This document shows, piece after piece, positions 30,094 through 56,921 of a DNA stretch of 64,000 bases. Under the pieces are notes generated by a model. That model ran no database searches and was not told the origin of the DNA. It saw nothing but the letters and a program-made list of their open reading frames with translations. This DNA comes from Verrucomicrobium spinosum DSM 4136 = JCM 18804 (GTDB lineage Bacteria > Verrucomicrobiota > Verrucomicrobiia > Verrucomicrobiales > Verrucomicrobiaceae): contig NZ_ABIZ01000001.1 in NCBI RefSeq assembly GCF_000172155.1, positions 7,349,105-7,413,104 of the forward strand, given 5' to 3'. The translations under genes and the position numbers were made by a program. Position 1 is the first letter of the stretch, and each line of letters opens with the position of its first letter.

Positions 30094-30126
30094 TTCAGGC
30101 CCCTTCCTTTCAAACGTCTTATGCTC

Positions 30127-31692: not shown

Positions 31693-31712
31693 CTTGGTGA
31701 TCTTGTAATGGC

Positions 31713-35714: not shown

Positions 35715-35861
35715 AGGAAGGTGGGCATTGCAAAAAACAAGAGGTCTTGAGAATTTCCGTTGTCCCCGGTGGGACATGAGAGCGACGCTACCCAGATGGC
35801 TGCAGCGTCAGTGGAGGCGTTGAGACAGGGGCTCCAAGGATGCCAGCCGCCGGGGTAGAAG

Positions 35862-36227: not shown

Positions 36228-36998
36228 ATGAAAAAAGAAATGGTGTTACCAAGATCGTTCCAGTCCTCTTTCTTTGAGAAAATGGGCGGCGAGCAGCAGT
36301 TCCTGATGCTGATCGATCAACTGCCAGACGTGGAATATTTCGCCAAAGACAAAGACGGCCGCTTCGTGGCGGCAAGCAAAAAGACCCTGCACCGGATAGG
36401 CATGAAACGGGAGGAGGAACTTCTGGGGGAGTTTGATTCAGCCATTCATCCTCCCAACGTCGCCCGGGCCATCCGCCTCGATGATATCGAAGTGATGACC
36501 ACCCGCCAGCCGTTGGTGGACCGGGTTGAAGCGCTCTACGCCCACAGCAGAACCCGAGAATGGTTTCTCACCACCAAACTGCCCATCGTGGGCCCTGACA
36601 ACGAAGTCATCGGAGTCATGGGGTTCGTGCGCCCCTACCGACACCTTCCGTCAGGAGGGGACCGTGATACCCACCTGCAGAAGGTGGTCGCCTACATTCG
36701 AAAAAACCACCGCACGCGCATCCTGGTCTCCAGCCTGGCAGACATTGCCCGGATTTCCCAGAGACAGCTCAACCGCAAGTTTCAGGAGTGTTACCACATG
36801 AGCGTCCAGGAATTCATCATGCGCACTCGCATACAGGCAGCAGGTGAGGAGCTCATTCACACAAACAAAACCATCGGTGATATCGCGCTGGACCATGGCT
36901 TCTACGACCAGAGCTTCTTCACCCGTTACTTCCGCCGTCAGACAGGGCAGACACCCCTGGTCTATCGCCGCAACGGACGCAACAGCACGGCGGCCTAG
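36228..36998 (+). CDS. PAS-AraC family transcriptional regulator
   Basis: 256 residues. An N-terminal PAS-like sensor (~20-140; LPDVEYFAKDKDGRFVAASKK, REWFLTTKLPIVGPDNEVIGVMG) precedes an AraC DNA-binding domain (~155-250) with both helix-turn-helix motifs: SSLADIARISQRQLNRKFQE and IGDIALDHGFYDQSFFTRYF followed by RRQTGQTP. It is a close paralogue of the truncated gene at 6214-6867 and shows what that gene has lost. Candidate binding sites lie upstream at 36020-36052 and 36179-36194. Targets may include the divergent DUF1800 operon; the convergent sulfatase gene follows. Confidence 0.88.
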   Translation: MKKEMVLPRSFQSSFFEKMGGEQQFLMLIDQLPDVEYFAKDKDGRFVAASKKTLHRIGMKREEELLGEFDSAIHPPNVARAIRLDDIEVMTTRQPLVDRVEALYAHSRTREWFLTTKLPIVGPDNEVIGVMGFVRPYRHLPSGGDRDTHLQKVVAYIRKNHRTRILVSSLADIARISQRQLNRKFQECYHMSVQEFIMRTRIQAAGEELIHTNKTIGDIALDHGFYDQSFFTRYFRRQTGQTPLVYRRNGRNSTAA

Positions 36999-37065: not shown

Positions 37066-38640
37066 CTACGACCGCGGGACTTCTGGTGTCTCCCCCGCCC
37101 GCCAGCGGGCTTCCGTGACTTCAGGATCTTCTCCAGTCTCCTCCACCATGGCTTTGTGCATCGCCTCCATCCTTGGCATGTTTTCCTCTTTTCCGGCGAG
37201 ATTGTGCAGCTCCCGGGGATCTTCTCGAAGATTGTAGAGTTCCCTTTCCGGGCCATGCAGTTCGTCCGCGCGTGTGTGGTACACATACTTCCAGTCGCCC
37301 TGGCGGATCATGGCGAAGCCGGATGCCACATAACTGGCATAGTACTCGCTCACCGCCAGGTCTCTCCATGGTGCCGAATGGTCATCCAGCCACGGGATCA
37401 TGGAGACGCCCTTCCAGTCAGAAGGCACCTGTGCCCCTCCGATGGCGGCAATGGTCTGCACCAGATCCAGCACCCCACAGGCACCAGTACGATGCTGCCC
37501 CCCTTTCCATCGTGACGGCCAGCTCACGATGAGCGGAACACGCGCACCGGAGTCAAACATGCAGTTCTTCCACCAGAGCCCGTGTTCACCGAGATTCTCG
37601 CCATGGTCAGAGGTGTATATCACGACCGTATTCTCCGCGAACCTTGAGTTCTTGAGAGCCTCCAGCACCATGCCGATCTGGTCATCGATCCATTCCACCC
37701 GTGCATAGTATCCTTCAAGGGCGCGTTTGGCCAATGCAGGTGGGACGCGTTCAAATTTTCGGTCATTTCTCAGGTGCCGGTAGTTGAGCGGCAGGGTGTC
37801 CACGTAGCCGGGAGGGACCTCCGGAAATGGCACCTTGTCCCTGAAGTGCTCAAGGTACTCCGGCGGTGCCACAAGCGGGTAGTGTGGCGCGATGAATCCA
37901 ATGGTGAGGAAGAACGGCTTGTTGTTGTCCGCACCCCGTTCTTTCAAAAACTTGATGGCGTGATCGCGTCGGACGACATCCACGAATTCATCCATGTCTG
38001 CATGCTCTCCCGCATGCTCAAACTCCTCCCCCAGTTCGTCACCGCGATCTTCAAACCGCCCGGCCGCCAGTCGCTGCCTGGGTTTGATGGCGTTTGAACC
38101 GCGCGCAGCCCGCTCTGCTCCTGGTTCCTTGCCCGGGGTTATCCTGCCGTCTTTTTCTGAGATGATCTGATAGCCGTGGGTCATCCCGCCCTTGTAGTGC
38201 ATCTTGCCATTCAGGTAGGAATCGTAGCCCGCAGCATTGAGGATGCGTGCGAGGCTGGGTGTTCCTTCTGGAACGCCCGGCGTGTTGCTCCAGACTCTGT
38301 GGCCGGACACATACTTGCCGGTGGTGAAAGACTGGCGCGACGGAGTACAGATGGGAGAGGCACAGTAATGAGCGTCAAAGAGAACGCCCCGCTCTGCCAG
38401 CGCATCCAGATGGGGCGTACGGGCCACCTTGTCCCCGGCGCAGCCCATGACACTGGCGTTGTGCTCGTCCGTCATAATGACAATGATGTTGGGGGGGAGC
38501 GGTCTCGCTGCCCTTGCACCAGTAACAGCTGTACCCACCAGAAGACAAATGGCGGCCAGAAAACCACCGCATGAGGCGATCGCTTGTTGATGAAGACCCT
38601 GCCGGACAGGTCGTCGCGTTTTCGTAGGTGAAGCATTCAT
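37066..38640 (-). CDS. S1-type sulfatase, CTPSR active site
   Basis: 524 residues with a signal-like hydrophobic segment (AICLLVGTAVTGARAA). The sulfatase core starts PPNIIVIMTDEHNASVMGCAGDKVARTPHLDALAERGVLF. The catalytic C98-T-P-S-R is the C-x-P-S-R signature that is converted to formylglycine. VVIYTSDHGENLGEHGLWWK and the late DWKYVYHTRADELHGPERELYNLREDP segment are also typical. The N-terminal IMTDEHN metal motif has Glu-His where many enzymes have Asp-Asp. It removes sulfate esters from glycans. It follows the PL8-type lyase gene on the same strand but after a strong hairpin. Confidence 0.9.
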   Translation of the reverse strand: MNASPTKTRRPVRQGLHQQAIASCGGFLAAICLLVGTAVTGARAARPLPPNIIVIMTDEHNASVMGCAGDKVARTPHLDALAERGVLFDAHYCASPICTPSRQSFTTGKYVSGHRVWSNTPGVPEGTPSLARILNAAGYDSYLNGKMHYKGGMTHGYQIISEKDGRITPGKEPGAERAARGSNAIKPRQRLAAGRFEDRGDELGEEFEHAGEHADMDEFVDVVRRDHAIKFLKERGADNNKPFFLTIGFIAPHYPLVAPPEYLEHFRDKVPFPEVPPGYVDTLPLNYRHLRNDRKFERVPPALAKRALEGYYARVEWIDDQIGMVLEALKNSRFAENTVVIYTSDHGENLGEHGLWWKNCMFDSGARVPLIVSWPSRWKGGQHRTGACGVLDLVQTIAAIGGAQVPSDWKGVSMIPWLDDHSAPWRDLAVSEYYASYVASGFAMIRQGDWKYVYHTRADELHGPERELYNLREDPRELHNLAGKEENMPRMEAMHKAMVEETGEDPEVTEARWRAGETPEVPRS

Positions 38641-38714
38641 ATGATTTCCAAATGTCCCACTGCCGCAGTTCGGTTGCCTAAATCATCGGCACCAGACATC
38701 GGAAACTGCACTCT

Positions 38715-38753
38715 GCGCCCCGTTGTTCCCCGCACTTGTGGACAACGGGGCGC
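38715..38753 (-). terminator. Hairpin terminator of the PL8-type lyase gene
   Basis: Perfect 12-base arms GCGCCCCGTTGT (38715-38726) and ACAACGGGGCGC (38742-38753) with a 15-base loop, 21 bases after the lyase stop on the minus strand. No T-run. It divides the lyase from the sulfatase that follows. Confidence 0.65.
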
Positions 38754-38773
38754 TGTTCTAATGCCGCATCCAA

Positions 38774-41700
38774 TCAAGGAAAGACAGGCTGCTGGCGCCA
38801 GGCCTGACTCAAAGCGAGAATCTCCTGCTGGCTGAGCGCAGTGTTGTACATGCGCACATCATCGATCCCGCCTTTGAAGTACCGGCTGCTGTTGTAGGTA
38901 TCGCGGCCAATGTAGAGCGGTTCATTGAAATTCGCATTTACCGCCGTGGCACTCCGGGTGGCGACCAGGAGGCCGCTCCCACCGTCCATATACACCTTCA
39001 CCGTCGTGGGATCGACGACCATCGCAACAAAGGTCCATACCCCGTCTGGAAGAGCAAGTCCTGTGGCGGTGTTCGCCCCGCCCCCTTGCCAGGTAGATCG
39101 CAACTGGTTGCCAACCACTCGCAGACCGGTCAGCGCGCTTCCCCGGCTGAAGGCGATGCCCGCGTACTCTGGCTGGTTGCCATTGCGCTTAACCCACCCG
39201 GTAAGGGTGAACTGATTCCCTGTAACCGGGGGCACTGGTGCCACGATGGCGTCGTTCACGCCATCGAACATCGCCCCGCCCTGGATCACTCCACCTGACC
39301 AGGCAGCTCCCTGCACAGCCCCATCGAGCCCGTTGCCAGACGAGTCCGCTGCGACCACACCGGTCGTCTCGTCCAGAGCCCAGTGTCCCACTGTCGAGGT
39401 GGAAGCGGGGCTGACCGGGATCGTGACATGAACGGGCGCCCCTGCATAGAGAGCGGCCTGATAGTTGCAGCTCGCGTCGTCGCTGGGATCAGGCAGGTTT
39501 ACCGTCACAAGAACTCCGTTGGCGATGTCTGTCACCTGCACCGTCTCTCCAGGGCGTGGATAGATGCCCGGCAGGGTATAGGCATAGGAGCCAACCTTAA
39601 GCGGGGCATTGACGGTGATGTTGAGCTGGGTCGCCAGCAGATCATGTGTCGGATCCGTGGCGGAGAGATCCCAAGAATCTCCATTTCGACGCAATTGAAC
39701 CAGTGCCGGACGGTCAACGCTCACCTGAAGTCCAGAGGACGTAGTGACTGTCGCGGCAGAATGGAATGCCAGTTGCACCACCCCCAGGGTGTGGTCACAG
39801 ATGCCCTGCACGTTGTTTCCGTTGCTCACCACCTCCAGATTGCTCTGCAGATTAGCCAGGTAGCCGGGCATCTCGGCGGCAGTAATGTTCGGCACCACCA
39901 CATAGAAGTACTTTGTAAGCCCTGAGGTGGCCGGGGTCACGCCGTGGCCGACGGCCAGGTGAATGATCGGAACCGAGGAGGTGTCCGCTGGATGGGTGTC
40001 CACAACGGCCGCCCCACCACGGATGTAAAGAGGCTGAGCCCCCTGAGGAAAAACCAGATAGCCAATGCTGCCCTGGTGCAGCCAGGTGGGCCCCGTGAGA
40101 TTGACCGTCTGGTCGATAGATGTACCCGCGGTGATCGTGACCACCGGTCCACCGTTCACACTGTAGCTAAGACTTCCGTCCCACCGTGTCTGATCCACCG
40201 TAGTGATGATGTTCCTGTTCTGCCCCGTCTCCACCCGTCCAACGTTGGATCCCAGTGCGATGGCTTCAGCACCGGGAAAGAACCAGGCCTTGTCCGCCTG
40301 GGCGGCGGAATAGTGCGGGCTCACGGTCGTGAGGGGGCGGTAGCGCATGGCGGCAAATCCACAGGAGCCGTCGGACGCCATGCCTGCGTAGTTGCTGCCT
40401 TTGGCCGCATTGCTGCCTTCCGTCGGAATGGCATCCGTCCGCCATTCTTCCGTCAGGCCTGGCAGAGCATGCCAGTCCCAGCGGCGCTTGACATTGATAT
40501 CGTATTCATTGCCTGTCACCTTAGTCTGGAGAATGCCGCTGCCTGCATGCCAGGACTTGCCTACGGCCTCAAAATCTTCCGCTCCCATGGTGCGATCATT
40601 GGCCATTTTCACTGAAAAATAGAAGGAGTCTGTGCTCGCCACCGCACCTCCTTCGCGATGAACCATGAGATTGCCCACCCAGAAAGGGAAATTGCCCGTG
40701 ACGGACTGGGTACCGGCCGAGAGGGCGTTGCGCCAGTTGATCAAAGCGGCCTCGTTTGTGATCACCGTGGTTGGCTGTTTGGCGTTCAGCAGCGCGGTGA
40801 CATTCCCGGGCAGTCCGGCCGTGAACTTGGTTTTGGAGTCTCCGTAGTAGGACCGACCGCTGACAGTGAAATCAAAGTCCTTTTTGTAGATCATCTTGTC
40901 GTAGGCATGGAGATACCGGTCTGCGATGAACTGATAGCCTTCGCTCCCCAGATCGATGCCGGTGTCTTTGAGCATCTTGTAGCTGATGCTGGGTTCGATA
41001 AGCCACTCCCCACCATAGGCCCACATGGCCGCATCGCTGGCGGAATCGGTGTGATGAGATACCGTGCCGTCGGGCTGGAAGCCAGACTGGCCAAACTGGT
41101 GTGCATTGCGGAACGCGTGGCGAACCCAGAAGACATAGTCATCCAGCACCCCATGCGGCGTCCAGCCGGGCATGTACAGCGCGGAGGGGAAGGAACTGTA
41201 GTAGCCTGCGTACCAATAGGGAATGTAGGTGATGGGCCGGTTGTAGTCAGCCCAGATCGCCGGCAGTGTCACCCATCCGCGGAATCGATGCCCCAAGTTG
41301 GCATCAGAGAAGGCACCCTCAGTATGATTGGTGTCGGTCAACTGCCCCCATCTGGCCCCCGGCGAATTAATTTCCCGATACGAGACCGGATTGCCGAACG
41401 ACAACTGAAAGAACCTCACGAGGTGCTCATGAAGTGCCGTGGCCACAGCGTTTCCACTGCGAACATCCGCCAGCAGGTCCGGCATGAGCCAGACGGCGGG
41501 GCCGGTCATCGGATCCGTAAAGCGCCACTGGTGGGAAAGATCGTTGAACTTGATCACCCCTTTTTCATTGAGGCGGAAGAAGCCGTCCCCATAATCCGTG
41601 CCAATGGGGGTGCCATTGAACAAGACAGTTGCAGGGTCCACCGGGAACTTTTCCAGCAAGGCAGTCATGGCCGAGTAGAGCGCCAGCTTCAGCCTCGTGT

Positions 41701-42400
41701 GATTCGCAGGCGTTCCGCCCGGCCCATACATTGCCGACTGCTTGTACGCCTTGCCCAGCCCACCGATCTTTTTTATCACTTCCACCCACTGGTTCCCCAA
41801 GGCTCCATTCGTGTTGACAAAGTTGCTGATGGGCAAGGTGTAAAACGTGTACCCGCTGAAGCGGCCATTGTTGGCCTCGATCTCCGTCAGCATGGTGCCC
41901 ACGGTCGCATCACTGTAGTTCCCCCCGCCCCAAAGATCCCCATCTGCCAGGGCATGGCTGCTGGCGAAGCTGAGGAACCCGTTCAGCAATGGTTGGGTGA
42001 CTCCGCGAACCACCAGATTTACCGTGGCCAGGGTGCTGGCACCGCTCGACAGGGTGACCGTGAGCGGGTAGTCCACGGGAGAGGCTGACACCGACTGGCC
42101 CGCCTTCACCTTGAGCGCGCCAAAGAGACGACTCACCGAGTCACGCTGGTTCACCAGTTCAAACACGCCAGAGGGATCCGATGCGATGGCCAGGGTGTGG
42201 GAGGCAGGTATGGGAACCTGATGTGCGTTCTTGTTCTCCAGCAAATGAATCTTCCCGTTGACCTCCGCTCCCGCGGGGCTCCCCGTCTGAATGTCAAAAT
42301 AGCCTGCGAACAACGTTTCTGCCGTGGCGGAAACGGGAGAACAAAAAAAAGCGGCCGCCCCGAGGAGGGCCGCCGCCAGTACTTTTCTGATTGGCTTCAT
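38774..42400 (-). CDS. PL8-family-type polysaccharide lyase with C-terminal LamG domain
   Basis: 1208 residues from ATG 42400 (MKPIRKVLAAALLGAAAFFCSPVSATA, a signal peptide). An alpha-toroid (~130-560) carries HQFGQSGFQPDGTVSHHTDSAS and WAYGGEWLIEPSISYKMLKDTG. The super-sandwich has SFYFSVKMANDRTMGAEDFE, RRWDWHALPGLTEEW, DGSCGFAAMRYRPL and KAWFFPGAEAIALGSNV, in the order of chondroitin/hyaluronate lyases. The His-Tyr spacing in the catalytic region differs from the one I recall for PL8, so the exact subfamily is open. The C-terminal ~200 residues are a LamG domain (VGHWALDETTGVVAADSSGNGLDGA, GGIDDVRMYNTALSQQEILAL), probably for glycan binding. It follows Verru_Chthon D on the same strand. Confidence 0.82.
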   Translation of the reverse strand: MKPIRKVLAAALLGAAAFFCSPVSATAETLFAGYFDIQTGSPAGAEVNGKIHLLENKNAHQVPIPASHTLAIASDPSGVFELVNQRDSVSRLFGALKVKAGQSVSASPVDYPLTVTLSSGASTLATVNLVVRGVTQPLLNGFLSFASSHALADGDLWGGGNYSDATVGTMLTEIEANNGRFSGYTFYTLPISNFVNTNGALGNQWVEVIKKIGGLGKAYKQSAMYGPGGTPANHTRLKLALYSAMTALLEKFPVDPATVLFNGTPIGTDYGDGFFRLNEKGVIKFNDLSHQWRFTDPMTGPAVWLMPDLLADVRSGNAVATALHEHLVRFFQLSFGNPVSYREINSPGARWGQLTDTNHTEGAFSDANLGHRFRGWVTLPAIWADYNRPITYIPYWYAGYYSSFPSALYMPGWTPHGVLDDYVFWVRHAFRNAHQFGQSGFQPDGTVSHHTDSASDAAMWAYGGEWLIEPSISYKMLKDTGIDLGSEGYQFIADRYLHAYDKMIYKKDFDFTVSGRSYYGDSKTKFTAGLPGNVTALLNAKQPTTVITNEAALINWRNALSAGTQSVTGNFPFWVGNLMVHREGGAVASTDSFYFSVKMANDRTMGAEDFEAVGKSWHAGSGILQTKVTGNEYDINVKRRWDWHALPGLTEEWRTDAIPTEGSNAAKGSNYAGMASDGSCGFAAMRYRPLTTVSPHYSAAQADKAWFFPGAEAIALGSNVGRVETGQNRNIITTVDQTRWDGSLSYSVNGGPVVTITAGTSIDQTVNLTGPTWLHQGSIGYLVFPQGAQPLYIRGGAAVVDTHPADTSSVPIIHLAVGHGVTPATSGLTKYFYVVVPNITAAEMPGYLANLQSNLEVVSNGNNVQGICDHTLGVVQLAFHSAATVTTSSGLQVSVDRPALVQLRRNGDSWDLSATDPTHDLLATQLNITVNAPLKVGSYAYTLPGIYPRPGETVQVTDIANGVLVTVNLPDPSDDASCNYQAALYAGAPVHVTIPVSPASTSTVGHWALDETTGVVAADSSGNGLDGAVQGAAWSGGVIQGGAMFDGVNDAIVAPVPPVTGNQFTLTGWVKRNGNQPEYAGIAFSRGSALTGLRVVGNQLRSTWQGGGANTATGLALPDGVWTFVAMVVDPTTVKVYMDGGSGLLVATRSATAVNANFNEPLYIGRDTYNSSRYFKGGIDDVRMYNTALSQQEILALSQAWRQQPVFP

Positions 42401-42589
42401 TCGATTGTGGTTTGGGTTGAAGTTGGCTGCAATCACCACGCGCCCGCCCCCTCACCACCATTCCTCACGGGTTCACTAAGTGATCTGACAGCGACTCCTC
42501 CAAATGTCTGACTTCACCCTGTAGTTGCATAAAACCTCAGATCACCTCACCACAGACCAAAAAAAATCACGCCACAGGTGCACACCAGG

Positions 42590-43228
42590 TTAATAGAGCA
42601 CCACCGCCCCCGTGTGGGCATTGATCACGAGGGTACGATAGTTGTCCGGCAGCGTCATTGGATCCGCTTCTGCGGACTTCGCCACATCTTTCTCCAGTGC
42701 GAAGGTTATGCACCATGTCGGGTCCGTTTCGCCTCGCGGCAACGTGGTGCCTCCTTCAGGTTTGAAGGCGAATACGGGCGGAGTTTTCACGGCATCTTCC
42801 ACAGCATCCTCTCCCACCATGGAACTGCGAGACAGGATGTTCGACCACTCGCTGCTCTCCACCATGATGGTGGAGTTGTCCAGCAGGTTGACTTCCCCGT
42901 AAGGCCGCCACTTCCCGGTAGTGCGGTCCGGCAACATCAACTGCCAGCCCTGATGTAGCAGCGGGGCTTCCGGGCCCGGTGCCACCTGCCTTCGCAAGAA
43001 CCGCACCCCGACCATCCGGTTTTCCCGCACGGCAAGCTGTGCGGCATAAGCCATCTCGTTGGTAAACCGGTTCGATGAGGACGTCAATTGCTGGGCCGCA
43101 AGCATCCCCCCCACCGACATTGAGGAAATCACCATAAGGAGAGATATCAATGCCACGACCACCAACATCTCAATCAGAGTAAAGGCTGGCAGGCACCGGG
43201 ACTTGGTGGGAATCAGATCAGTTTTCAC
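42590..43228 (-). CDS. Verru_Chthon cassette protein D (pseudopilin-like)
   Basis: 212 residues. The prepilin-type N-terminus LPAFTLIEMLVVVALISLLMVISSMSVGG has Phe after the expected cleavage site and Glu five residues later, but Ala instead of Gly at -1. The exported part has RFTNEMAYAAQLAVRENRMVGVRFLRR and a closing NAHTGAVVLY. It overlaps the start region of protein C's stop by 11 bases. Verru_Chthon D is one of the four proteins in this lineage-specific cassette. The next gene on the strand is the PL8-type lyase, 189 bases further. Confidence 0.85.
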   Translation of the reverse strand: MKTDLIPTKSRCLPAFTLIEMLVVVALISLLMVISSMSVGGMLAAQQLTSSSNRFTNEMAYAAQLAVRENRMVGVRFLRRQVAPGPEAPLLHQGWQLMLPDRTTGKWRPYGEVNLLDNSTIMVESSEWSNILSRSSMVGEDAVEDAVKTPPVFAFKPEGGTTLPRGETDPTWCITFALEKDVAKSAEADPMTLPDNYRTLVINAHTGAVVLY

Positions 43229-44345
43229 GGGAAGTTTCGAGCTTGGCGGCAGGAATTTGCACTATGGTGGTGAAGATCCTGTGACTGAGCCGGAGATTCG
43301 TCAGGTCAGCCCCCAGGTTCTTGATGTCTTCGTCGTATTTCGAAGCGGCGGTGAAGTACTTCGAAGTGGTCCATGTCCGGAGCTGGTCCGCAAGAGCATC
43401 CGCCTTGGTGTTGTCGAGCGCTGCCCAGTCCTCTTCATGCAGAGCCACCAGAGTCAATCTCACCATGGGGGGGAGCTGGTGCCGGCACTTTTCCGCCAAG
43501 GTCGTGGCGTCCGGCCACTGGTGGCGTCGCGTGTCATAAATGTAGGCGGGCGCGAAGGAAGTATCGACGCCGGAGACTCCCACGATCGATGGCGACAACG
43601 GCTGCACAACAATCGCCAGAATGTTGTCAGCGAGGGGTTGGGAGTCTTTACCCAGATTGGTCTTGAACCACTGATAGAGGTCCTGTTGCGACTTCTGGGC
43701 TTCTATCCAAGGCACCGGCAACGCGTCAGCCGCCGCACCAATGAGGGAAGTGGCTTTGAAAAGTGAAAGCCTCTCCGTTGGCTGTCGAAACTCCATCAAT
43801 CGGAAGCGCTTGCGTTCGGGGCTGATGAGTGAGGATGCGAGAAATCCAGGGCGTCGGGGCAAATCCGTGTCGTAGGTTACATACCATCCCCATCCGTTGA
43901 GGAGGCTGTCCAATCCCTCAGGCCCGGAACCCGCTGGACCAGTGCCAGGCTGGAGGTTCTCCCCCAATGGTGCCTGGAAAAACACTGCGTGCCCTGAAGA
44001 CGGCTGTTGAGAGCCAAGAAGAATCGATGACGGGCCACTCACGTAATGAAGCTCGGACTGCCGCTGATAGAGCACAGGGTTTCCGCTCGCATCTATCTTG
44101 TAACCCCAGTAGGAGTTCAAAGTGGCCTGTGAAAGACGGGCAGAGATCGCCTCAAACACCGCCCGGGCCTCCCGATACTCCTCCGTCCGGGCCTTGGCAT
44201 GGCCCCAAGCCCTCTGAGTACCCGTCAGCACTTGTGTGAGCACCAGCATCAAAACAGCGATCACCGCCACGGAAACCAGCAGTTCCACAAGCGTGAACGC
44301 CATCCTCCGGCTGGAGCAGGGGTAGGGAGACTGGATCATGAACAT
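43218..44345 (-). CDS. Verru_Chthon cassette protein C (pseudopilin-like)
   Basis: 375 residues from ATG 44345 (MFMIQSPYPC); a second ATG follows at 44339. RRMAFTLVELLVSVAVIAVLMLVLTQVLTG is a prepilin-type N-terminus. A helical segment (EYREARAVFEAISARLSQATLNSYWGY) and a large beta-rich exported domain follow, as in GspJ-like minor pseudopilins. It starts 11 bases after protein B ends and overlaps protein D by 11 bases, so B, C and D form one translational unit. Confidence 0.85.
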   Translation of the reverse strand: MFMIQSPYPCSSRRMAFTLVELLVSVAVIAVLMLVLTQVLTGTQRAWGHAKARTEEYREARAVFEAISARLSQATLNSYWGYKIDASGNPVLYQRQSELHYVSGPSSILLGSQQPSSGHAVFFQAPLGENLQPGTGPAGSGPEGLDSLLNGWGWYVTYDTDLPRRPGFLASSLISPERKRFRLMEFRQPTERLSLFKATSLIGAAADALPVPWIEAQKSQQDLYQWFKTNLGKDSQPLADNILAIVVQPLSPSIVGVSGVDTSFAPAYIYDTRRHQWPDATTLAEKCRHQLPPMVRLTLVALHEEDWAALDNTKADALADQLRTWTTSKYFTAASKYDEDIKNLGADLTNLRLSHRIFTTIVQIPAAKLETSREN

Positions 44346-44356
44346 GAGCGTGGGTG

Positions 44357-44875
44357 TTACTTGGAAGCTACGGTGGGCGCCGGAGGCGCACTGTCTGTTT
44401 GGGCCACCAAGGTTTGCGCGTGGCGGCACCGCTCAGGTTTGAGGAAAGCTGCGTCAGGCCGCGGGCTGTTCGTCACCATGATGCGCACCGCCCGAAGACC
44501 TTCGTTGGACCCCGTGGCCCCGGGGAGCGGTTCCGCATCCGTCACATGGACCCGTGCTGTGAAAATAACTCCGGAATCGCCCTTGCTTACGCGGGCACCC
44601 TGGCTGTCAAAATGGAAGTCCACCCCGGCGGCATCCGCATCCAGCTTGGTCACCTCCGACCAGCTTCGCATCCGAAAGTCCGCAGAGATGGATTGGACAA
44701 TTCGAGCCTCGGCCGTGGTATTGCCGGCCTCTCGCATTGTTTCAAGTGAGACGGGCACAAGGCCTACCAAGGCCACGAGCACCGTGGCAGCAATGCCGAC
44801 TGCAATGGTAGTTTCCACCAGGGAAAACGCCTGGGGGCGGCGAGATGGATGATGGTGCATGGTTCTCATGATCAA
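44357..44875 (-). CDS. Verru_Chthon cassette protein B (pseudopilin-like)
   Basis: 172 residues. HHHPSRRPQAFSLVETTIAVGIAATVLVALVGLVP is the prepilin-type N-terminus (cleavage expected before Phe, conserved Glu). It is followed by the AEARIVQSISADF helix and a small exported domain. First gene of the B-C-D unit; its start lies 501 bases from the divergent sigma factor. Confidence 0.85.
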   Translation of the reverse strand: MIMRTMHHHPSRRPQAFSLVETTIAVGIAATVLVALVGLVPVSLETMREAGNTTAEARIVQSISADFRMRSWSEVTKLDADAAGVDFHFDSQGARVSKGDSGVIFTARVHVTDAEPLPGATGSNEGLRAVRIMVTNSPRPDAAFLKPERCRHAQTLVAQTDSAPPAPTVASK

Positions 44876-45376
44876 AAGCGGGTGTCATGCTGCGACACGG
44901 CAGCGAGTGATTGAACTGGTTTGTCTTGTCGATGGGGCAATTGTCGTGCCTTTGTGATGACATGTGCAGTTGCGTGTGACGGTTACAAAGAATCTTCTCC
45001 ACTGCCGACTCCCAGCGGAACTACCGTCATGCAAATCCGGCCGAAGCTGGATCATTTATCCATTCAATTCACCCCGACCGGGCCCGGTATGAACGTTGCC
45101 GTCCTTTCCTTGAGCTATTGCGTGATCCAATTGCCCGCCAGCACTATCAGGCATTTGCGGGCAGGGCGTGTGCGCCCAAGGCTCTCCGGTCGCAAAGCTG
45201 CCCCTTGCACCGGGGCAGATCCATCCATGGCATTTCAAACACAATCTCCCATCGTGTTTTCTAATACTAACACTGACAGCAACTTGGTACTGGAAGTCGC
45301 GCTGAATGACGGTTTATACTGTGAACGCCAGCAAGATATCGTCTATTGAATCGTTCCCACCGGGGTCAGACTACCT
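44876..45376. other. Divergent regulatory region between Verru_Chthon B-C-D and the sigma/FecR pair
   Basis: No convincing gene. A short hairpin CTGCCCC (45198-45204) / GGGGCAG (45212-45218) and AT-rich elements (TAATAC at 45262-45267, TATACT at 45315-45320) may mark promoters for the plus-strand sigma gene. Promoters for the minus-strand cassette must lie here too, which makes this the natural place for the sigma factor's own targets. Confidence 0.45.
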
Positions 45377-45955
45377 ATGGGCAACCTCCTCCCCAACCCA
45401 GCCACCGGCCCTGCCGCCCCATCGCCAGACGATGGTGCAGCGCATGGCATGGTCTCGTTCGACCAGGAGCTAAACCGCCATGCGGGCACCTTAAAACACT
45501 ATGTGCGGTCATTGATGCCGGGGTTCCACGGGGCGGATGATCTCGCCCAGGAAGTATTGCTCAAAGTGTGGGAAAAAAAGAATGAGTTCACGCCAGGCAC
45601 CAATTTCAAAGCCTGGATTTTCCAGGTGGCGCGTTTCTATGTGATGAACCAGCGGCGCAAACTCGCCCGTTCAAACGTGATCCTCCTTGATGATGAACTG
45701 CTTGACCAGATAGAGTGGCAGTGGATGCAGGAGGATATGCCCGACTCGGAGGCCGAACTGGAGGCTTTGCAGAAGTGCATGAGCTCGCTCAGCCAGTCGG
45801 ATCACCAATTGCTTCACATTCGCTATGCAACCAAGACCCCGCTGGAAACATATGCTGAACAGGAGGGAGTGCGCACTGGCACCCTGAAAGCCCGACTGTT
45901 CCGGCTTCGGGATGCGCTCCGGCGCTGCATTGAACTTCGCCTTGGCACACCATGA
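45377..45955 (+). CDS. ECF-type RNA polymerase sigma factor
   Basis: 192 residues. Region 2: HYVRSLMPGFHGADDLAQEVLLKVWEKKNEFTPGTNFKAWIFQVARFYVMNQRRKLARS. Region 4: LSQSDHQLLHIRYATKTPLETYAEQEGVRTGTLKARLFRLRDALRRCIE. It is closely related to the orphan sigma factor at 13426-14103. Its stop overlaps the FecR start by 4 bases, and it is divergent from the pseudopilin-lyase gene set. Confidence 0.9.
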   Translation: MGNLLPNPATGPAAPSPDDGAAHGMVSFDQELNRHAGTLKHYVRSLMPGFHGADDLAQEVLLKVWEKKNEFTPGTNFKAWIFQVARFYVMNQRRKLARSNVILLDDELLDQIEWQWMQEDMPDSEAELEALQKCMSSLSQSDHQLLHIRYATKTPLETYAEQEGVRTGTLKARLFRLRDALRRCIELRLGTP

Positions 45956-47397
45956 ACTCTGGTTTTACCGAAGATCCCCACCACCTTGAACGTGCCCTGA
46001 ACCTCCTTGTTGAGGGGCAGCTTTCTGAGGTTGAATCTCGCGCGCTGCAAGAGCGAATGAAGTCAGATCCGGCGCTTCTGGCCAAATATTTGGGCATTGT
46101 GCGGATGGATTCCCTGCTGCGAGACTTCGGCTGGCGGACGGAGGACGAGCCCATGGCAGCACCGCTCCAAAGGACTCAAAACAAACACCGTACCCGTTGG
46201 TTGCTGCTGGCGGCGACGGTGGCCGTGGTAGCAGTGATTCCACTTGTTGCCCTCTGGCGCACCTCGCAGCGGCACGCCCCTGCCGTGGCAACGCTTCCGT
46301 CGGTCAAGTTTTCCCCTACTTCAGTATTTGAGACGGTCTCGCCCCAGGCCACCGATGATGGACAACTGCGTTTCGGCGATGCGGTGGCGATGAGCGATGG
46401 CACTGTCTCCATCCGGCTTCCCAGTGGGGTGGAAGCGGTCATCAAGAGCCCGGCCCGCTTTGCCATCACCGGGCAGAATCGCATTCAACTCGACAAGGGG
46501 ATCGCATGGTTCCGGGTGCCTCAACCGGCCAAAGGATTTGCCGTGGACCTGCCTTGGATGGAGGTGGTGGACCTCGGCACCGTCTTTACCACCCAGGTGA
46601 GTGAGGAGTCTCATGAGGTACGGGTGGATCAGGGTCATGTGGAAGTGCGGGTAAAGAACCCTTCGGCAGCCCAGCTGCCGATTGCCTTGGTGGGTGGTCA
46701 AACGCTCGTCCAACAATTCCGCGACACCGCCCCTCAGGTGCAGTCCACCTCCAGCGCCACCACTTCACACGTTCATGAAGAGGAAGCAAAGGTGGTGTTT
46801 AAGGAGATGCTCAAACATGTGCCTGACCAGTCCTTTGCAGAACGCCAGGCTCTGGTGGGGAGCTGGACCATCCGGGAAGGCATCGCCAGGATCCGGAACG
46901 GCCGTTTTAACGCAGACTCAGACTTAACGCATCTGGTGGGCGAATTCTCTGCACCCGTGGAAAAAGATTCCAATGCCATTGTGATCCTTTCGTTCAAATC
47001 CGTCTCGCCAACCTCCCTGTTCCACTCCAAGGGATTCGCTGGCGTGAGCTTGTTTGATCACGAAGGCGAGATGTTCTTCATAGGAGACCGCAGTACCGAC
47101 ACCTACTCCTGGGAAGTGGTCACCTATGGCAAAAACTTCCGCGGGCCGATGGACATGCGGACCGCGTTCAGCCTCTCCACGCAGGGCAGCGAAGCCACCT
47201 TCACGCTTCGTTACCGTCAGCGCACCGGAGAATTCGATGTCTTTAAGGGATGGGGCGTAGAAGGCATGCCCATCCTCAAAGGAAAGTCGGATCCGAACAT
47301 GAGGATCGACCGTGTACGCATCGCCAATGGAAGGGGCGGCGACTTCTCCTTTGAGAACATCCAGGTCTCCGTGGTTCACGAAAAGGTGTCCGAATAG
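45952..47397 (+). CDS. Membrane-anchored FecR-type anti-sigma/sensor with lectin-like C-terminus
   Basis: 481 residues. A cytoplasmic helical N-terminus (LERALNLLVEGQLSEVESRALQERMKSD, LRDFGWR) is likely the sigma-binding part. A membrane helix lies at ~82-101 (LLLAATVAVVAVIPLVALW). The FecR domain spans ~125-250 (FGDAVAMSDGTVSIRLPSGVEAVIKSPARFAI, GFAVDLPWMEVVDLGTVFTTQV, EVRVDQGHVEVRV). The C-terminal ~170 residues form a beta-rich concanavalin-like domain (AIVILSFKSVSPTSLFHSKGFAGVSLFD, SFENIQVSVV) of the type that binds sugars. The gene is coupled to the sigma factor; the arrangement suggests direct sensing of a polysaccharide or its fragments. Confidence 0.85.
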   Translation: MNSGFTEDPHHLERALNLLVEGQLSEVESRALQERMKSDPALLAKYLGIVRMDSLLRDFGWRTEDEPMAAPLQRTQNKHRTRWLLLAATVAVVAVIPLVALWRTSQRHAPAVATLPSVKFSPTSVFETVSPQATDDGQLRFGDAVAMSDGTVSIRLPSGVEAVIKSPARFAITGQNRIQLDKGIAWFRVPQPAKGFAVDLPWMEVVDLGTVFTTQVSEESHEVRVDQGHVEVRVKNPSAAQLPIALVGGQTLVQQFRDTAPQVQSTSSATTSHVHEEEAKVVFKEMLKHVPDQSFAERQALVGSWTIREGIARIRNGRFNADSDLTHLVGEFSAPVEKDSNAIVILSFKSVSPTSLFHSKGFAGVSLFDHEGEMFFIGDRSTDTYSWEVVTYGKNFRGPMDMRTAFSLSTQGSEATFTLRYRQRTGEFDVFKGWGVEGMPILKGKSDPNMRIDRVRIANGRGGDFSFENIQVSVVHEKVSE

Positions 47398-47439: not shown

Positions 47440-48984
47440 CTATTCCTTGTCCCCAGCGGTGCCGCCTCCGCTCAACACAGGGTACCATGTACGCCCCTCT
47501 TTGACGGGAGGCGTAACGCCGGTGGGCGGGAAGGTGGACTGGACCGCCTTGTGCAACTGGTTCTTGAGCGTGGCCACTGTTTGAGCCAGTTCAGGGCGGC
47601 TGGCCAGATTGGCAAGCTCCTGTGGATCGGCCTCGTGATCGTAGAGTTCTGCTCCCGCGCGACCTTCATCCCACTCCGTGTACCGCCAGCGGGTCGTGCG
47701 AAGGCTGTATCCCACAAAGGAGTGCTGAGGTGATTTGCCTGAAGCAGGTCTGATGCGGACATCTACCGCGTTCGCACGTGTAACCTGGGTGAGCGCCCAT
47801 CCCCTGCCTTTGGCGAGAGGGTCCTTGAGCAATGGTACCAGGCTCTGCCCCTGCAAACTGGCAGGTGCGGGAACTCCGGCCAGCTCGGCCAGGGTGGGAT
47901 ACAAATCCACAAGACTCACGGGCTCCTTGACCACAGCCCCCTCCCGCGCCACCCCCGGTGCAACGATCATCAAGGGCACCCGAGCACTGGCCTCAAAGAG
48001 GCTCATCTTCTGCCACAAGCCGTGTTCCCCCATGTGATAGCCGTGATCGCTGGTGAAGACGATGATGGTGCTCTCCGCAAGACCCAGTTGCTTCAGCTCT
48101 TCCACCACCCTGCCCACCTGCGCGTCCATGAAGCTGATGCTCGCGTAGTAGGCTTGAACCGCCTGCTGGCGCAGATCGTCCGTGAGCTGGTCCTGTTCTT
48201 TTTTGTAGCTCACCAGAGCGGCCGCCGGCACTTCAGCAGGCACTTTCTCGACCGGAGGATACAACGGCATCTTCTCCACCGGATAGAGGTCGAAGTAGGC
48301 CTTGGGTGCGACATAGGGCGTGTGGGGGCGGAAGAACCCCATCGCTACAAAGAAAGGCCGGGACTTGTCAGCCGCACACCGTGACAGCAGCCACCGAGCG
48401 TCATCAGCCACCATGCCATCCGTGTGCCGGGCGTCCGCGCTGGGAGAAGCCAGCCAGCTCAGCGTGGCGCCATACTGTCCCGGCACAAGGGAGAAGATAT
48501 CCCGCTCCTCGTCCAGATGGTCCACCCCCACCGGGTTCGCGGTAACTTCCCACGAAGCGGGATCATCGTGCCCCGCAGTACCAATCGACTTGGGAACCCC
48601 GTAGTGGTACAGCTTGCCAACGCGACCCGCGAAGTATCCGGCGTGCCGGAAGGCCTGCGGCAGACTTACGTGGTCGGGAATCGTCTGTCGGAAGGTCGTG
48701 TGGTTGCCTGTGACGCCGTTTGCGTTGGGATACAGCCCCGTCAGAAAGGAGTTGCGACTCGCCCCACAGACCGGGTAGGCGCAGTTCGCACTTTCAAACC
48801 GCACCCCACTTGCGGCCAGCTTGTCCAGATTCGGGGTCTTGGCGATCGGATCCCCATAGCACCCGAGGTAGGTGTTCAAGTCATCGGAGACGATGAACAG
48901 CACGTTGCGCGCGCTCGCAGCGGAGGCCGCGGGCATGACAGATAAGCAAAGCAGGGCAGCGGCGTAGATGAGGGGAGGCTTCAT
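47440..48984 (-). CDS. S1-type sulfatase, iduronate-2-sulfatase-like, CGASR active site
   Basis: 514 residues from ATG 48984 (MKPPLIYAAALLCLSVMPAASA, a signal peptide); upstream in-frame codons look non-coding. ARNVLFIVSDDLNTYLGCYGDPIAKTPNLDKLAASGVRF carries the metal-binding Asp pair. C73-G-A-S-R is a C-x-A-x-R variant of the formylglycine signature. FFVAMGFFRPHTPYVAPKAYFDLYP and VFTSDHGYHMGEHGLWQKMSLFEASARVPL are as in iduronate-2-sulfatase-type enzymes. Substrate: sulfated glycan, probably a uronic-acid one. It ends 42 bases from the convergent FecR gene. Confidence 0.9.
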   Translation of the reverse strand: MKPPLIYAAALLCLSVMPAASAASARNVLFIVSDDLNTYLGCYGDPIAKTPNLDKLAASGVRFESANCAYPVCGASRNSFLTGLYPNANGVTGNHTTFRQTIPDHVSLPQAFRHAGYFAGRVGKLYHYGVPKSIGTAGHDDPASWEVTANPVGVDHLDEERDIFSLVPGQYGATLSWLASPSADARHTDGMVADDARWLLSRCAADKSRPFFVAMGFFRPHTPYVAPKAYFDLYPVEKMPLYPPVEKVPAEVPAAALVSYKKEQDQLTDDLRQQAVQAYYASISFMDAQVGRVVEELKQLGLAESTIIVFTSDHGYHMGEHGLWQKMSLFEASARVPLMIVAPGVAREGAVVKEPVSLVDLYPTLAELAGVPAPASLQGQSLVPLLKDPLAKGRGWALTQVTRANAVDVRIRPASGKSPQHSFVGYSLRTTRWRYTEWDEGRAGAELYDHEADPQELANLASRPELAQTVATLKNQLHKAVQSTFPPTGVTPPVKEGRTWYPVLSGGGTAGDKE

Positions 48985-49392
48985 GAGAATTGAGTGGAGG
49001 GATGCATGCGTCTCCCTCTGTAATGTCTGTGGCCCATCCACGGTTGCGGCGTCTAGCTGCACCAGTTTGGAGGGGGCAGGTGCGAGTTCTGACGTGGTTC
49101 GTTGCTGGCCGGAGATGCGTCCCCCATGGCGCAACTGATCCCTGCACCGCTGACTAACCGGGCCATCAAGGCTTGGGCTCGCGGGGCAAATCCCTCAACC
49201 GTGTCCCCGGCACGAGGGAGTTGTGGTGCCACGCGACTCGGTGGCGTGCCCGTCAAAAAGCGAGCCGCCACAATGAAAAGGAACGGGTTGAAAAGTGCGT
49301 GGATCTTGAGGGATATCCCCTGCCAAAAAGTGTCCAGTTTGCGGCGGCCGGAGCTGCTCCTCTGAGCGGCCCTGACTTGTCACGCGCCTTGC
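48985..49392. other. Intergenic region, nothing recognised
   Basis: A plus-strand frame at 49102-49365 has no recognisable motif and I do not call it. No repeats or clear promoter found. Confidence 0.3.
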
Positions 49393-50481: not shown

Positions 50482-51792
50482 CTACGAAGAGAGCATTCTG
50501 AAAGCCGCATCCCTGCCGGAACGCCTGTCAGGGCAGCCATGGGAGGCCCCCGCCCGGGACATCATGCGCCGCCAGTTCCTGCGATGCTCGCCTGGAGGGT
50601 GGCCCACCACTTTTTTGAAAACTTTGCTGAAGTGCTCGAGATGCTCGTATCCACACTGCTCCGCCACATCCACCATGGGAATGTCCGTCGTCTCAAGCAA
50701 CTCCTGGGCACGCCGGCACTGCACTCTCCAGATCTCAGCGAGGAGTGTGCGGCGTACGGCCGCCTTGAACCTCATCTCCAACTGACGTCGGGCCAGGGGC
50801 ACGCGCCCCACCACTTCTGCAACACGCAGGCCGGCACAGGCTTCCTGCTGTATCATCCGCAGAGCCTTTGCCACATAAGGGTCCTCCACGGCAAAAACAT
50901 CTGTGCTGCGCCGCCAGGCCACTCCCGCTGGCGCCAGCTGGTAGATCTTGCCCGTCACAGCGGGCTCCCCTCCCATCCAGCGGTCCAAGAGCTGCGCAGC
51001 CCGGTAGCCGGCACCCTCGCCGTTGAGAATGATGCTCGAAAGCGGCGGCGAGGCCAGTTCTGCGATGGATGCATCGTTATCCACTCCTAGAACCGCCACA
51101 TCCTCCGGCACACGAATGTTGCTGACCAGGCAGGCGTTCAGCACCTGCAGACCCATCCCATCATCTCCGGCCCAGATGCCCAGGGGCCTGGGCTGGCTTT
51201 CCAGCCACTTTGCAATGATCTGCACCGCACGCCCGGCCCCAGACTCCCCCGGGTTCAGCAGAAGATTCCCACACCTCTCGCCACGCGCTCCCAGCAGCCG
51301 CCGGAATTCCTCCCACCGCTCAAGAGACCACTGCTGCAATGAGTCACCAACAAACGCGTGATGCCGGAAGCCGCGATCGTCAAAACACTTCAACGCCAGA
51401 TGAGCTGCCAGCAGCGGATCCTGCGACAACGTCGGAAAGAACGGCTCCTTGAGGGCTCCGCTGATGTTCACCACAGGCAGGCTAAGTGACTTTAGCTCTG
51501 CCTCCACTTCCTGGGTGTCAACCCGCGCAATGATACCCTGCCCCCGCCATGACCTCAAACTGGGCGGCGGCATCTCGAAGCGGCGGCGATGGATGATGTA
51601 GAGAGCCCACGGTTTCTTGCTTTCACGCTGGTACCTCCCAATGCCTATGAGGAGATCACGCGAGTATGAGCCCGCGTCATCAATCAATACCGCAACCTGC
51701 TGGCTCCCTGGGCCAGAATCACCTTGGGCCCTCACCCCATAACGGGATGTCGGGAAGCCATTAGGATGGTTCGTCGTTTGCATTTGAGTCAA
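50482..51792 (-). CDS. XylR-like transcriptional regulator (periplasmic-binding-type sensor plus AraC domain)
   Basis: 436 residues. Residues ~30-300 form a LacI-type sugar-binding fold (VAVLIDDAGSYSRDLLIGIGRYQ, AAHLALKCFDDRGFRHHAFVGD, PEDVAVLGVDNDASIAELASPPLSSIILNGEGAGYRAAQLLDRWM). The C-terminal ~110 residues are an AraC domain (RVAEVVGRVPLARRQLEMRFKAAVRRTLLAEI, VDVAEQCGYEHLEHFSKVF and KKVVG). This XylR arrangement senses a sugar in the cytoplasm. The gene is divergent from a sugar isomerase-like gene, its likely target. The last ~40 residues (GCPDRRSGRDAAF) are an unusual tail. Confidence 0.88.
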   Translation of the reverse strand: MTQMQTTNHPNGFPTSRYGVRAQGDSGPGSQQVAVLIDDAGSYSRDLLIGIGRYQRESKKPWALYIIHRRRFEMPPPSLRSWRGQGIIARVDTQEVEAELKSLSLPVVNISGALKEPFFPTLSQDPLLAAHLALKCFDDRGFRHHAFVGDSLQQWSLERWEEFRRLLGARGERCGNLLLNPGESGAGRAVQIIAKWLESQPRPLGIWAGDDGMGLQVLNACLVSNIRVPEDVAVLGVDNDASIAELASPPLSSIILNGEGAGYRAAQLLDRWMGGEPAVTGKIYQLAPAGVAWRRSTDVFAVEDPYVAKALRMIQQEACAGLRVAEVVGRVPLARRQLEMRFKAAVRRTLLAEIWRVQCRRAQELLETTDIPMVDVAEQCGYEHLEHFSKVFKKVVGHPPGEHRRNWRRMMSRAGASHGCPDRRSGRDAAFRMLSS

Positions 51793-52959: not shown

Positions 52960-54399
52960 TTACACCGGGCTTTCCCAGCCTTTGCGGTACGCGCGCTGGA
53001 TCCAGCCCTTCGTTTCGGGACGCCCCTTCACCTCCAACTGACCCGCATCCCACTCCAGCTTCTGCCCGGGAATCCGCTGGGCCAGTGTGCCCACCAGGAT
53101 CATCTCTGTGAAGGGCCCCGCGACCGCGAAGTCGGACTGGCCGCGCTCCACCTTTCCCGTGATAGCGTCGTACCATTCCTGGTAGTTATCCTGGCGGACT
53201 GCCCGGGGAATGGTGGGTTCTGGCCATTTGAACCCGTCCAGCTTGTGCACCGCCTTCAGCGTCCAGGTGGCACGCTCGCGGGAGAAATAGAGACGTCCAT
53301 AGTCGCCAACAATGACGGTGTCGTAGTTCCTGAAACCCTCCCCACTCATGACGGCGTCATCGGGGTGATGGTACTCCTCATTCTTTTTGGCAAGCGACCA
53401 TGAATTCCGGTCAAAGCTGGCATTCAAGTAGCCGTCGTACCAGAAGAACTTGCACCCGGCCGCTGAGCTGTGCCTGGAAGGGGCGAACTCCCAGGTGATT
53501 TTGGAACTGATCGGCGGGGACCAGTCCGTCCCCCCCTGCTGCTCGGCCAGGACTGACACGGGGTCACCCGGCATCGTGGCCCACCAGCCGAGGTCGAGAA
53601 TATGGCAGGCCATGTCACCCAGCGCGCCGCATCCGTAGTCCCACGCACCCCGCCAGCCAAACGGGGCCAGCTTGCTGCTATAGCCCGTTTCCGGAGCGGG
53701 ACCAAGCCATTGCTCCCAGTTCATCCATGCCGGGACGGGCTCCGGCTCTGGAGGTGTGGCGATGCCCTGCGGCCAGATGGGACGGTTCGTCCACCCATGC
53801 ACCTCACGCACGCCGCCAATGACGCCGGCTTGAATGAGTTCCACGCAACGCCGCATGTGATCCAGCGCATGAGCCTGGTTCCCCATCTGCGTCTTGACCC
53901 CGGTCTCACGCGCCACACGTGCCAGCGTGCGGGCCTCCCAAAGGCCATGAGTCAGCGGCTTCTGACAGTACACGTGCTTCCCGGACTTCATCGCCAGGCA
54001 GGCGGCGTGGAAGTGGTGGTGGTCTGGTGTGGAAACGGTCACCGCATCCACCCTGTCCCCAAGGGAGGCGAGCATCTCACGGTAGTCCGTGAAGAATGGT
54101 GCCTGAGGATGCATTTCCCGGCTCTTGCCGGAGCTGCGCTCCACCTTGTCATCGTTGATCTTCCGGGAATCGACCACGTCCACGAGCCCCACGATCTCAA
54201 ATCCCGCGTTCATCGCTCCCTGAAGGTCCGCCGCCCCTTTGCCACCGATGCCGATGGCCGCCAACGTGGGCTTCTGAAGCTTGCCCCATGCCCGTGACGG
54301 GATGAACTGAAAGCCGAATGCCGTGGCGGCAGCTGCCGCAACCCCTTTGACAAAATGACGCCTGTCCAGACTTTGAATTGATGGTTGTTTCATAGTCAT
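52960..54399 (-). CDS. Tat-exported Gfo/Idh/MocA family oxidoreductase
   Basis: 479 residues. LDRRHFVKGVAAAAATAFG is a twin-arginine signal. The NAD(P)-binding fold follows: AAIGIGGKGAADLQGAMNAGFEIVGLVDV, then VDAVTVSTPDHHHFHAACLAMKSGKHVYCQKPL. The C-terminal alpha/beta domain has ALGDMACHILDLGWW, a usual substrate-site region, and DAVMSGEGFRNYDTVIVGDYGRLYFSRE. These enzymes oxidise or epimerise sugars, or open glycosidic bonds by redox chemistry. It starts 10 bases after DUF1080 and is the last gene of the minus-strand block, so the two probably act together outside the cytoplasm. Confidence 0.88.
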   Translation of the reverse strand: MTMKQPSIQSLDRRHFVKGVAAAAATAFGFQFIPSRAWGKLQKPTLAAIGIGGKGAADLQGAMNAGFEIVGLVDVVDSRKINDDKVERSSGKSREMHPQAPFFTDYREMLASLGDRVDAVTVSTPDHHHFHAACLAMKSGKHVYCQKPLTHGLWEARTLARVARETGVKTQMGNQAHALDHMRRCVELIQAGVIGGVREVHGWTNRPIWPQGIATPPEPEPVPAWMNWEQWLGPAPETGYSSKLAPFGWRGAWDYGCGALGDMACHILDLGWWATMPGDPVSVLAEQQGGTDWSPPISSKITWEFAPSRHSSAAGCKFFWYDGYLNASFDRNSWSLAKKNEEYHHPDDAVMSGEGFRNYDTVIVGDYGRLYFSRERATWTLKAVHKLDGFKWPEPTIPRAVRQDNYQEWYDAITGKVERGQSDFAVAGPFTEMILVGTLAQRIPGQKLEWDAGQLEVKGRPETKGWIQRAYRKGWESPV

Positions 54400-54408
54400 C
54401 CCCTGATT

Positions 54409-55383
54409 TCAATCCCTTTTTTTCACCGGCTGCAGCACCATGTTCCGGTAGTCGATGTTGGTGTGGTCTCCCTGCAGCATGATGGGCCCGGGCTGGGACT
54501 CATCACTCTGCAGTGCCCCGCCAGTGCAGCCCAGAACGGGTTGATTGTTGATGAGTGTCTGGCCGTTGAGGACCACTGTGACGTGCTTGTCCACCAGCGT
54601 GATCTCCAGCTTCTGCCATTCCCCCACCGGCTTTTCGGCGGCGACCGCGGGAACGATGCGGCTGTAGAGCGCCCCCATGTTGTGTGAGTCCAGCGGCTTC
54701 CCGAATGTCTCCGCAATCTGGATCTCGTACCTGCCACGCAGATAGATCCCGCTGTTGCTGCCCTCCAGCGTGCGCACGTCGGTGGTCAGTCGGAAGTCTT
54801 CATACTCAGCCCGCGTGCGGACATTGCCGAAACGCCGCCCCTTCTCCTTCACCACGCGATTGGACAGGATGCCGCCCCTCAGGGTCCATCCGCTCTCCTC
54901 CTTCCCCTCTACCAGCGTCCATTTGTCAGGGAAGTCGTCGTCAAGGAGAGGCTCAGGGGTGCCGTACTTCACCTTTGCCAGATCCGGCGTCGGCGGCAGG
55001 GGTCCGCTGTCCCGTCCCTCAGCCCTTGGCCCGGCCTCCGTTTCGCCGTTGAGTTTGAGGATCGAACTCTCCAGCTTCAGTCCGTCACTATCCCGGCGGG
55101 CCACCACCTTCAAGGTCGGAGACTCTCCGCCGCGGCTGGCCACTGGACGCTCCACGAGCAGGGTATCTCCCTGGAGCTCGATCTTGCTCACTGGCAACAC
55201 GCTGCCCGTGCCCCACATGAGCGCTCCGGTCAGCCCGGACTCTTTTTCCTCCACCCCCAGCCATCCGGTGCGGCCGTCCTCCAGGGTGAGCGCCCAGCGA
55301 CCGGCAAACGGGTTCTGTCCCGCTTGCAAGGGCAGGACGGCAGCGATGAGAGAAAGAACGGAGACAGCAAGGTATGGCTTCAT
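54409..55383 (-). CDS. DUF1080 (3-keto-glycoside hydrolase-like) secreted protein
   Basis: 324 residues with a signal peptide (MKPYLAVSVLSLIAAVLPLQAG). Residues ~25-130 form a beta-rich N-terminal part. The C-terminal ~190 residues are the DUF1080 jelly roll: LLDDDFPDKWTLVEGKEESGWTLRGGILSNR, DFRLTTDVRTLEGSNSGIYLRGRYEIQI, WQKLEITLVDKHVTVVLNGQTLIN, GPIMLQGDHTNIDYRNMVLQPV. DUF1080 proteins are 3-keto-disaccharide hydrolase-like enzymes that often work with Gfo/Idh/MocA oxidoreductases, which fits the neighbour. Confidence 0.85.
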   Translation of the reverse strand: MKPYLAVSVLSLIAAVLPLQAGQNPFAGRWALTLEDGRTGWLGVEEKESGLTGALMWGTGSVLPVSKIELQGDTLLVERPVASRGGESPTLKVVARRDSDGLKLESSILKLNGETEAGPRAEGRDSGPLPPTPDLAKVKYGTPEPLLDDDFPDKWTLVEGKEESGWTLRGGILSNRVVKEKGRRFGNVRTRAEYEDFRLTTDVRTLEGSNSGIYLRGRYEIQIAETFGKPLDSHNMGALYSRIVPAVAAEKPVGEWQKLEITLVDKHVTVVLNGQTLINNQPVLGCTGGALQSDESQPGPIMLQGDHTNIDYRNMVLQPVKKRD

Positions 55384-56905: not shown

Positions 56906-56921
56906 CCTTTTTCTCCTCCGT

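Follow-up and report, generated by a model that had tools for sequence, protein, structure and literature searches.

A FecR-type anti-sigma factor with a predicted lectin-like outer domain in a polysaccharide lyase and sulfatase region of Verrucomicrobium spinosum

Does a sigma/anti-sigma pair of Verrucomicrobium spinosum DSM 4136 sense a polysaccharide, and which of the genes around it would it then switch on? The question is raised by a 64,000-nucleotide stretch of the closed, 8.22-Mb genome (contig NZ_ABIZ01000001.1, positions 7,349,105 to 7,413,104; hereafter the window, with positions counted from its first letter), in which genes for an extracytoplasmic function (ECF) sigma factor and a FecR-like protein are divergent from three pseudopilin-like genes, B, C and D, of the Verru_Chthon cassette. 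A sequence-only reading had proposed that the outer domain of the FecR protein binds a polysaccharide and frees the sigma factor, which activates both the pseudopilins and the degradative enzymes. The polysaccharide half of that model gained support, because the outer domain has a predicted lectin-type fold, all four PL8 lyase genes of the genome lie in the two islands that hold its only two sigma/FecR units of this subfamily and lyases lie behind orthologs of the pair in five relatives, whilst the B-C-D half was not supported for this cassette. We consider it probable that the pair acts at the membrane as a sensor of a polysaccharide that is acidic and probably sulfated, and that it induces the neighbouring genes for lyases and sulfatases, B-C-D being no conserved part of its regulon.

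The sigma factor, the FecR protein and its outer domain

Genes were checked by open reading frame (ORF) listing and family profile scans, with genes called by a simple codon-score script that may have missed small genes, and gene linkage was checked on regional stretches of the genome. This bore out the genes and positions of the sequence-only reading, and the ORF listing confirmed the divergence of the pair from B-C-D across a gap of 501 bp:

45377-45955, plus strand: ECF-type sigma factor, Rhodopirellula/Verrucomicrobium family (TIGR02989, 156.3 bits against a curated cut-off of 124.55)
45952-47397, plus strand: FecR-like anti-sigma protein, 481 residues (PF04773, 27.2 bits against a cut-off of 24)
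44876-45376, no strand: divergent intergenic region of 501 bp between B and the sigma factor gene

The TIGR02989 score, being over the cut-off, places the sigma factor in the gvs1 family; its orthologs are 55-73% identical, and its reading frame overlaps that of FecR by 4 bp. The FecR protein combines a predicted N-terminal helical domain (residues ~9-50), a single hydrophobic stretch taken from the sequence itself (~82-103), the FecR domain (~147-255) and a predicted C-terminal concanavalin-type jelly roll (~278-481). Pfam detected PF04773 only in this protein, with no lectin match, and the FecR alignment, searched against PDB sequences, gave only weak anti-sigma matches, so that a fold search was needed for the outer domain. 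In a model of the whole protein the FecR domain matched the Parabacteroides anti-sigma factor 4m0n (E 3.6e-8) and the remainder matched calreticulin-type lectins. The C-terminal domain modelled alone, using nine homologs, reached a predicted template-modelling score (pTM) of 0.80 and matched L-type lectins (ERGIC-53), calreticulin, GH16, PL7 and CBM66 (Foldseek E 4e-7; Z ~14, best row 16). The predicted structure thus backs the concanavalin-like outer domain that had been proposed from the sequence and that Pfam does not see. The N-terminal helices would be the part that holds the sigma factor.

The window contains two other sigma factor loci. A further sigma factor gene (13426-14103, minus strand), ~51% identical to that at 45377-45955, has no adjoining FecR gene and a DUF218 gene upstream, and a second sigma/FecR pair lies beside a gene for a heparinase II/III-like (DUF4962) protein (15647-17601 with 17668-20415, both minus strand), with a solo cassette protein A gene divergent at 20808.

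Lyases and sulfatases linked to the pair

The sigma/FecR unit was sought in 115 related genomes and its outer domain in 68 genomes of the family. Clear orthologs (52-65% identity) were found in seven genomes besides this one, whereas in an eighth the match was distant and partial; the outer-domain search returned the same set. Five relatives outside the genus have a polysaccharide lyase close behind the pair, usually with sulfatases: at loci L022, L023 and L025 scanning identified an alginate-lyase/polysaccharide-lyase fusion directly behind FecR, at L024 a similarly placed gene has the same start sequence as these fusions (its likeness being judged by that start), and at L021 a sulfatase and an alginate lyase follow a few genes behind. 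The lyases of the relatives suggest alginate-like substrates.

The enzymes and regulators of the window are the following:

36228-36998: PAS-AraC regulator
37066-38640, minus strand: sulfatase (PF00884)
38774-42439, minus strand: PL8 lyase, chondroitinase AC-like, with a C-terminal LamG domain (PF02278, PF02884, PF13385)
47440-49134, minus strand: sulfatase, convergent with FecR (PF00884)
50482-51792: XylR-AraC regulator
52960-54399, minus strand: Gfo/Idh/MocA oxidoreductase (PF01408)
54409-55383, minus strand: 3-keto-disaccharide hydrolase, DUF1080 (PF06439)
55397-56959, minus strand: sulfatase (PF00884)
56922-60974, minus strand: ThuA/DUF7133/cytochrome c protein (PF23500, PF06283)
60872-62470, minus strand: sulfatase (PF00884)
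62422-64000, minus strand: second PL8 lyase, running on to 65031 past the window (PF02278 and PF09093, on the longer stretch L147)

Pfam confirmed both the lyase with its LamG domain and the sulfatase further along, which lie on the same strand as B, C and D; the sulfatase convergent with FecR lies just past the FecR end. The PL8-LamG lyase matches chondroitinase AC (1cb8/1hm2, E 3e-25), its N-terminal PF08124 match falls under the cut-off, and it carries the motif DGTVSHH...AYGGEW, in which we take the active-site His and Tyr of PL8 enzymes to be kept. The resemblance to chondroitinase AC suggests chondroitin- or hyaluronan-like substrates for this enzyme.

Several of these genes have counterparts behind the pair in the relatives. 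The sulfatases at 55397-56959 and 60872-62470 are 78-79% and 65-66% identical, respectively, to genes behind sigma/FecR in L022, L024 and L025, which also hold an oxidoreductase; genes related to Gfo/Idh/MocA (~33% identical) lie behind the pair in four relatives, and a homolog of the DUF1080 hydrolase (52%) does so in L022.

Much of the window island also has a second copy in the same genome, at 6.684-6.740 Mb (island 2). Its B, C and D are 60-61%, its XylR-AraC regulator 62%, its DUF7133 protein 66% and its two PL8 genes 59% and 58% identical to their window counterparts, and it also holds two A genes, DUF1800/DUF1501 genes and a sigma/FecR paralog (51% identical to the window unit). One PL8 gene, the 58% homolog of window 62422-65031, lies 90 bp behind this FecR gene on the same strand, and the homolog of the ThuA/DUF7133/cytochrome c protein follows a few genes behind the pair. 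The genome has four PL8 genes, two per island, and two FecR proteins of this subfamily, one per island, each with two PL8 genes, so that within this genome the link between the sensor subfamily and PL8 is exclusive; since the islands share ancestry, the four PL8 placements are not independent events. A three-gene cluster (DUF1800, DUF1501 and a GspG-like gene) also occurs in both islands (window 29488-35777, minus strand; contig 6720887-6726825, plus strand).

The B-C-D cassette and the reach of the regulon

The three pseudopilin-like proteins to the left of the sigma factor were confirmed by TIGR profiles, all over their curated cut-offs, as full Verru_Chthon members:

44357-44875, minus strand: cassette protein B, pseudopilin-like (TIGR02598, 162.8 bits)
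43218-44429, minus strand: cassette protein C (TIGR02599, 480 bits)
42590-43228, minus strand: cassette protein D, GspH-like (TIGR02596, 280 bits)
20808-24923, plus strand: solo cassette protein A (TIGR02600, 1358 bits, match at contig 7370053-7374024)

The true start of C is probably an ATG ~40 codons inside the called ORF, since residue 44 is the first that the profile covers. Prepilin motifs (FSLVE, FTLVE and FTLIE) occur one each in B, C and D. No gene for protein A, with which B-C-D usually occur, adjoins them; the closest copy is that at 20808-24923 on the other strand. The genome encodes eight secretion ATPases of GspE/PilB size, all of them outside the window, so a structure built from B-C-D would need shared machinery.

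The closest relatives of the window C protein (56-65%) are encoded at three further loci of V. spinosum and in five other genomes. Each of the eight has B, D and A genes alongside, A adjoining directly save in island 2 (~6 kb off), and none has sigma/FecR beside it. Conversely, no B-C-D of the window type occurs at any of the orthologous sigma/FecR loci. The divergence of the two modules was found in no other genome searched, and a lack of conserved linkage is what the sequence-only reading had itself named as refuting its model; these distributions speak against a sigma factor that drives B-C-D. Among database loci holding C (n = 80), A-B-C-D linkage is nearly universal and 77 are without sigma/FecR; the three cassettes that have it are orthologous to two further cassettes of V. 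spinosum. One of these has a PA14-like FecR upstream of a PATR protein gene and A-B-C-D, an arrangement with 86-93% conservation in two species. In the other, sigma and a FecR-LamG protein are divergent from a complete A-B-C-D (L028 2415-11429, ~7.012-7.021 Mb); Verrucomicrobium sp. BvORR034 (L078) keeps this locus at 90-96%. The divergent layout is thus conserved, but at a locus other than that of the window.

A general association, weaker than had been claimed, survives in these two genus-conserved pairs and in an excess of proximity. Of the 16 sigma/FecR units of this genome, two have a cassette within 1.5 kb (0.17 expected, P 0.012) and four have one within 6 kb (0.65 expected, P 0.003), the P values being uncorrected and ignoring island clustering. 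The same units show no genome-wide enrichment near sulfatases (one unit has a sulfatase within 5 kb, against 0.94 expected), and it is therefore this subfamily alone that carries the sulfatase link.

At other cassettes, each large neighbouring protein that was scanned has PATR repeats, and one such protein has a GH5 cellulase domain as well (L046 1772-7012, L019 12234-17474), which makes a cassette-and-cargo pairing of B-C-D with the PL8 lyase plausible. Elsewhere, a copy of protein C is split into two overlapping frames, as if by a frameshift (L030 18588-19704, contig 7613593-7614673).

The intergenic region at 44876-45376 had been named as a place to look for a promoter motif. A phylogenetic footprint of sigma upstream regions from nine loci recovered no conserved motif, a scan of the region for a sigma-70-like promoter found none, and a search between B and sigma for a remnant of protein A or of an AraC gene gave none convincing, its sole DNA similarity falling within the B coding region.

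How far, then, would the sigma factor reach? That it activates B-C-D along with the PL8 lyase and the sulfatase, the pseudopilins helping to secrete or display the lyase, we regard as unlikely. The divergent layout with its shared 501-bp region, the position of the lyase on the strand of D and 150 bp behind it, with no terminator found in the gap, the nearness of sigma/FecR units to cassettes relative to random placement in this genome, the presence of B-C-D, A, sigma/FecR and PL8 within ~55 kb in island 2, the two other cassettes with genus-conserved sigma/FecR neighbours and the GH5-bearing PATR neighbour of another cassette all favour it, but the unlinked homologs elsewhere and the lack of a conserved promoter in the footprint count against it. 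We regard as likewise unlikely the broader proposal that the lectin- or LamG-type FecR/ECF units of Verrucomicrobium are dedicated switches of pseudopilin cassettes, with a single large surface protein or enzyme as the client of each cassette; were it true, polysaccharide sensing would turn on an enzyme together with a tailored apparatus for its export or display. Improbable, finally, is a small unrelated regulon, with proximity reflecting a general clustering of surface-protein genes and the enzymes obeying regulators like PAS-AraC and XylR-AraC. AraC-type regulators do occur in both islands, the XylR-AraC paralog lying just upstream of B-C-D in island 2, and the lack of sulfatase enrichment near sigma/FecR units in general would fit; yet in island 2, and in several of the relatives, FecR and a lyase gene directly behind it share a strand, which suggests one operon.

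The sensing of an acidic glycan by the pair, with lyases and sulfatases as its targets, remains the reading that we prefer, and several points weigh against it. A jelly roll is by itself no proof of sugar binding, and both the fold and the ligand are putative. Two congeneric species keep a sigma/FecR ortholog without adjoining lyases, flanked by household-type genes and, convergently, a PATR-cellulase cassette. The enzymes and sigma/FecR lie on opposite strands in the window, so that co-regulation needs promoters, which were not found.

The analysis establishes the domain make-up, a predicted fold and the gene linkage; for the mechanism we infer the ligand, the release of sigma and the target promoters. 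The N-terminal helices of FecR would keep the sigma factor at the inner membrane, whilst the periplasmic FecR and jelly-roll domains would detect an acidic glycan or a fragment of it; the released sigma factor would transcribe its own operon and the PL8 and sulfatase genes of the island. What in the relatives is one gene run behind sigma/FecR would here have been broken up into sigma/FecR (45377-47397) and enzyme groups at 37066-42439 and 47440-65031. B-C-D belongs to a separate, widespread cassette family, whose members normally accompany protein A and an exported protein of large size; here its neighbour or cargo is probably the PL8-LamG enzyme, and it is possibly a passenger of the sensor locus.

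Known systems and what the locus means

Carbohydrate-sensing anti-sigma factors are known to release sigma and induce glycan genes (PMC10766802). The ECF/anti-sigma polysaccharide loci of Bacteroides likewise link a membrane anti-sigma factor and an ECF sigma factor to glycan-degrading genes (PMC10766802), and it is a Parabacteroides anti-sigma factor, 4m0n, that the window FecR domain matches; unlike in those loci, the lectin-type domain is here fused to FecR itself. Among the neighbouring genes scanned (29488-62470) there was no SusC/SusD pair of a Bacteroidota-type polysaccharide utilization locus and, by Pfam, no TonB-dependent receptor as in FecIRA, a receptor elsewhere in the genome not having been sought. 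SigI/RsgI of the Clostridium thermocellum cellulosome (PMC10766802) follows the same principle, an outer carbohydrate-binding module on the anti-sigma factor controlling matching enzymes, but the window proteins belong to FecR and TIGR02989, and the FecR protein has no Pfam match to the RsgI N-terminal domain. In the Verru_Chthon cassette (TIGR02596, TIGR02598, TIGR02599, TIGR02600) the window retains B, C and D with A displaced and the PL8-LamG lyase following D. The pilus-like mucin locus MUL2 of Akkermansia (PMC13174399) is likewise a pilus-like system tied to glycan use in the Verrucomicrobiales, but uses different proteins, Amuc_1099-1102; window gene 31713-35777 gave a marginal Amuc_1099-type match. 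Our literature search found no paper under the Verru_Chthon cassette name and nothing on-topic uniting Verrucomicrobia, FecR, sigma factor and polysaccharide.

For control of a cassette, the FecR-LamG unit at ~7.012-7.021 Mb offers a better test case than the window. The hitherto unexplained pseudopilin cassette family is now linked to PATR proteins that are large and exported, one of which bears a GH5 domain. Verrucomicrobiota are rich in sulfatases, the regulation of which is little described in the literature found; with the sigma/FecR pair this phylum has a specific candidate for a sensor of acidic and sulfated glycans.

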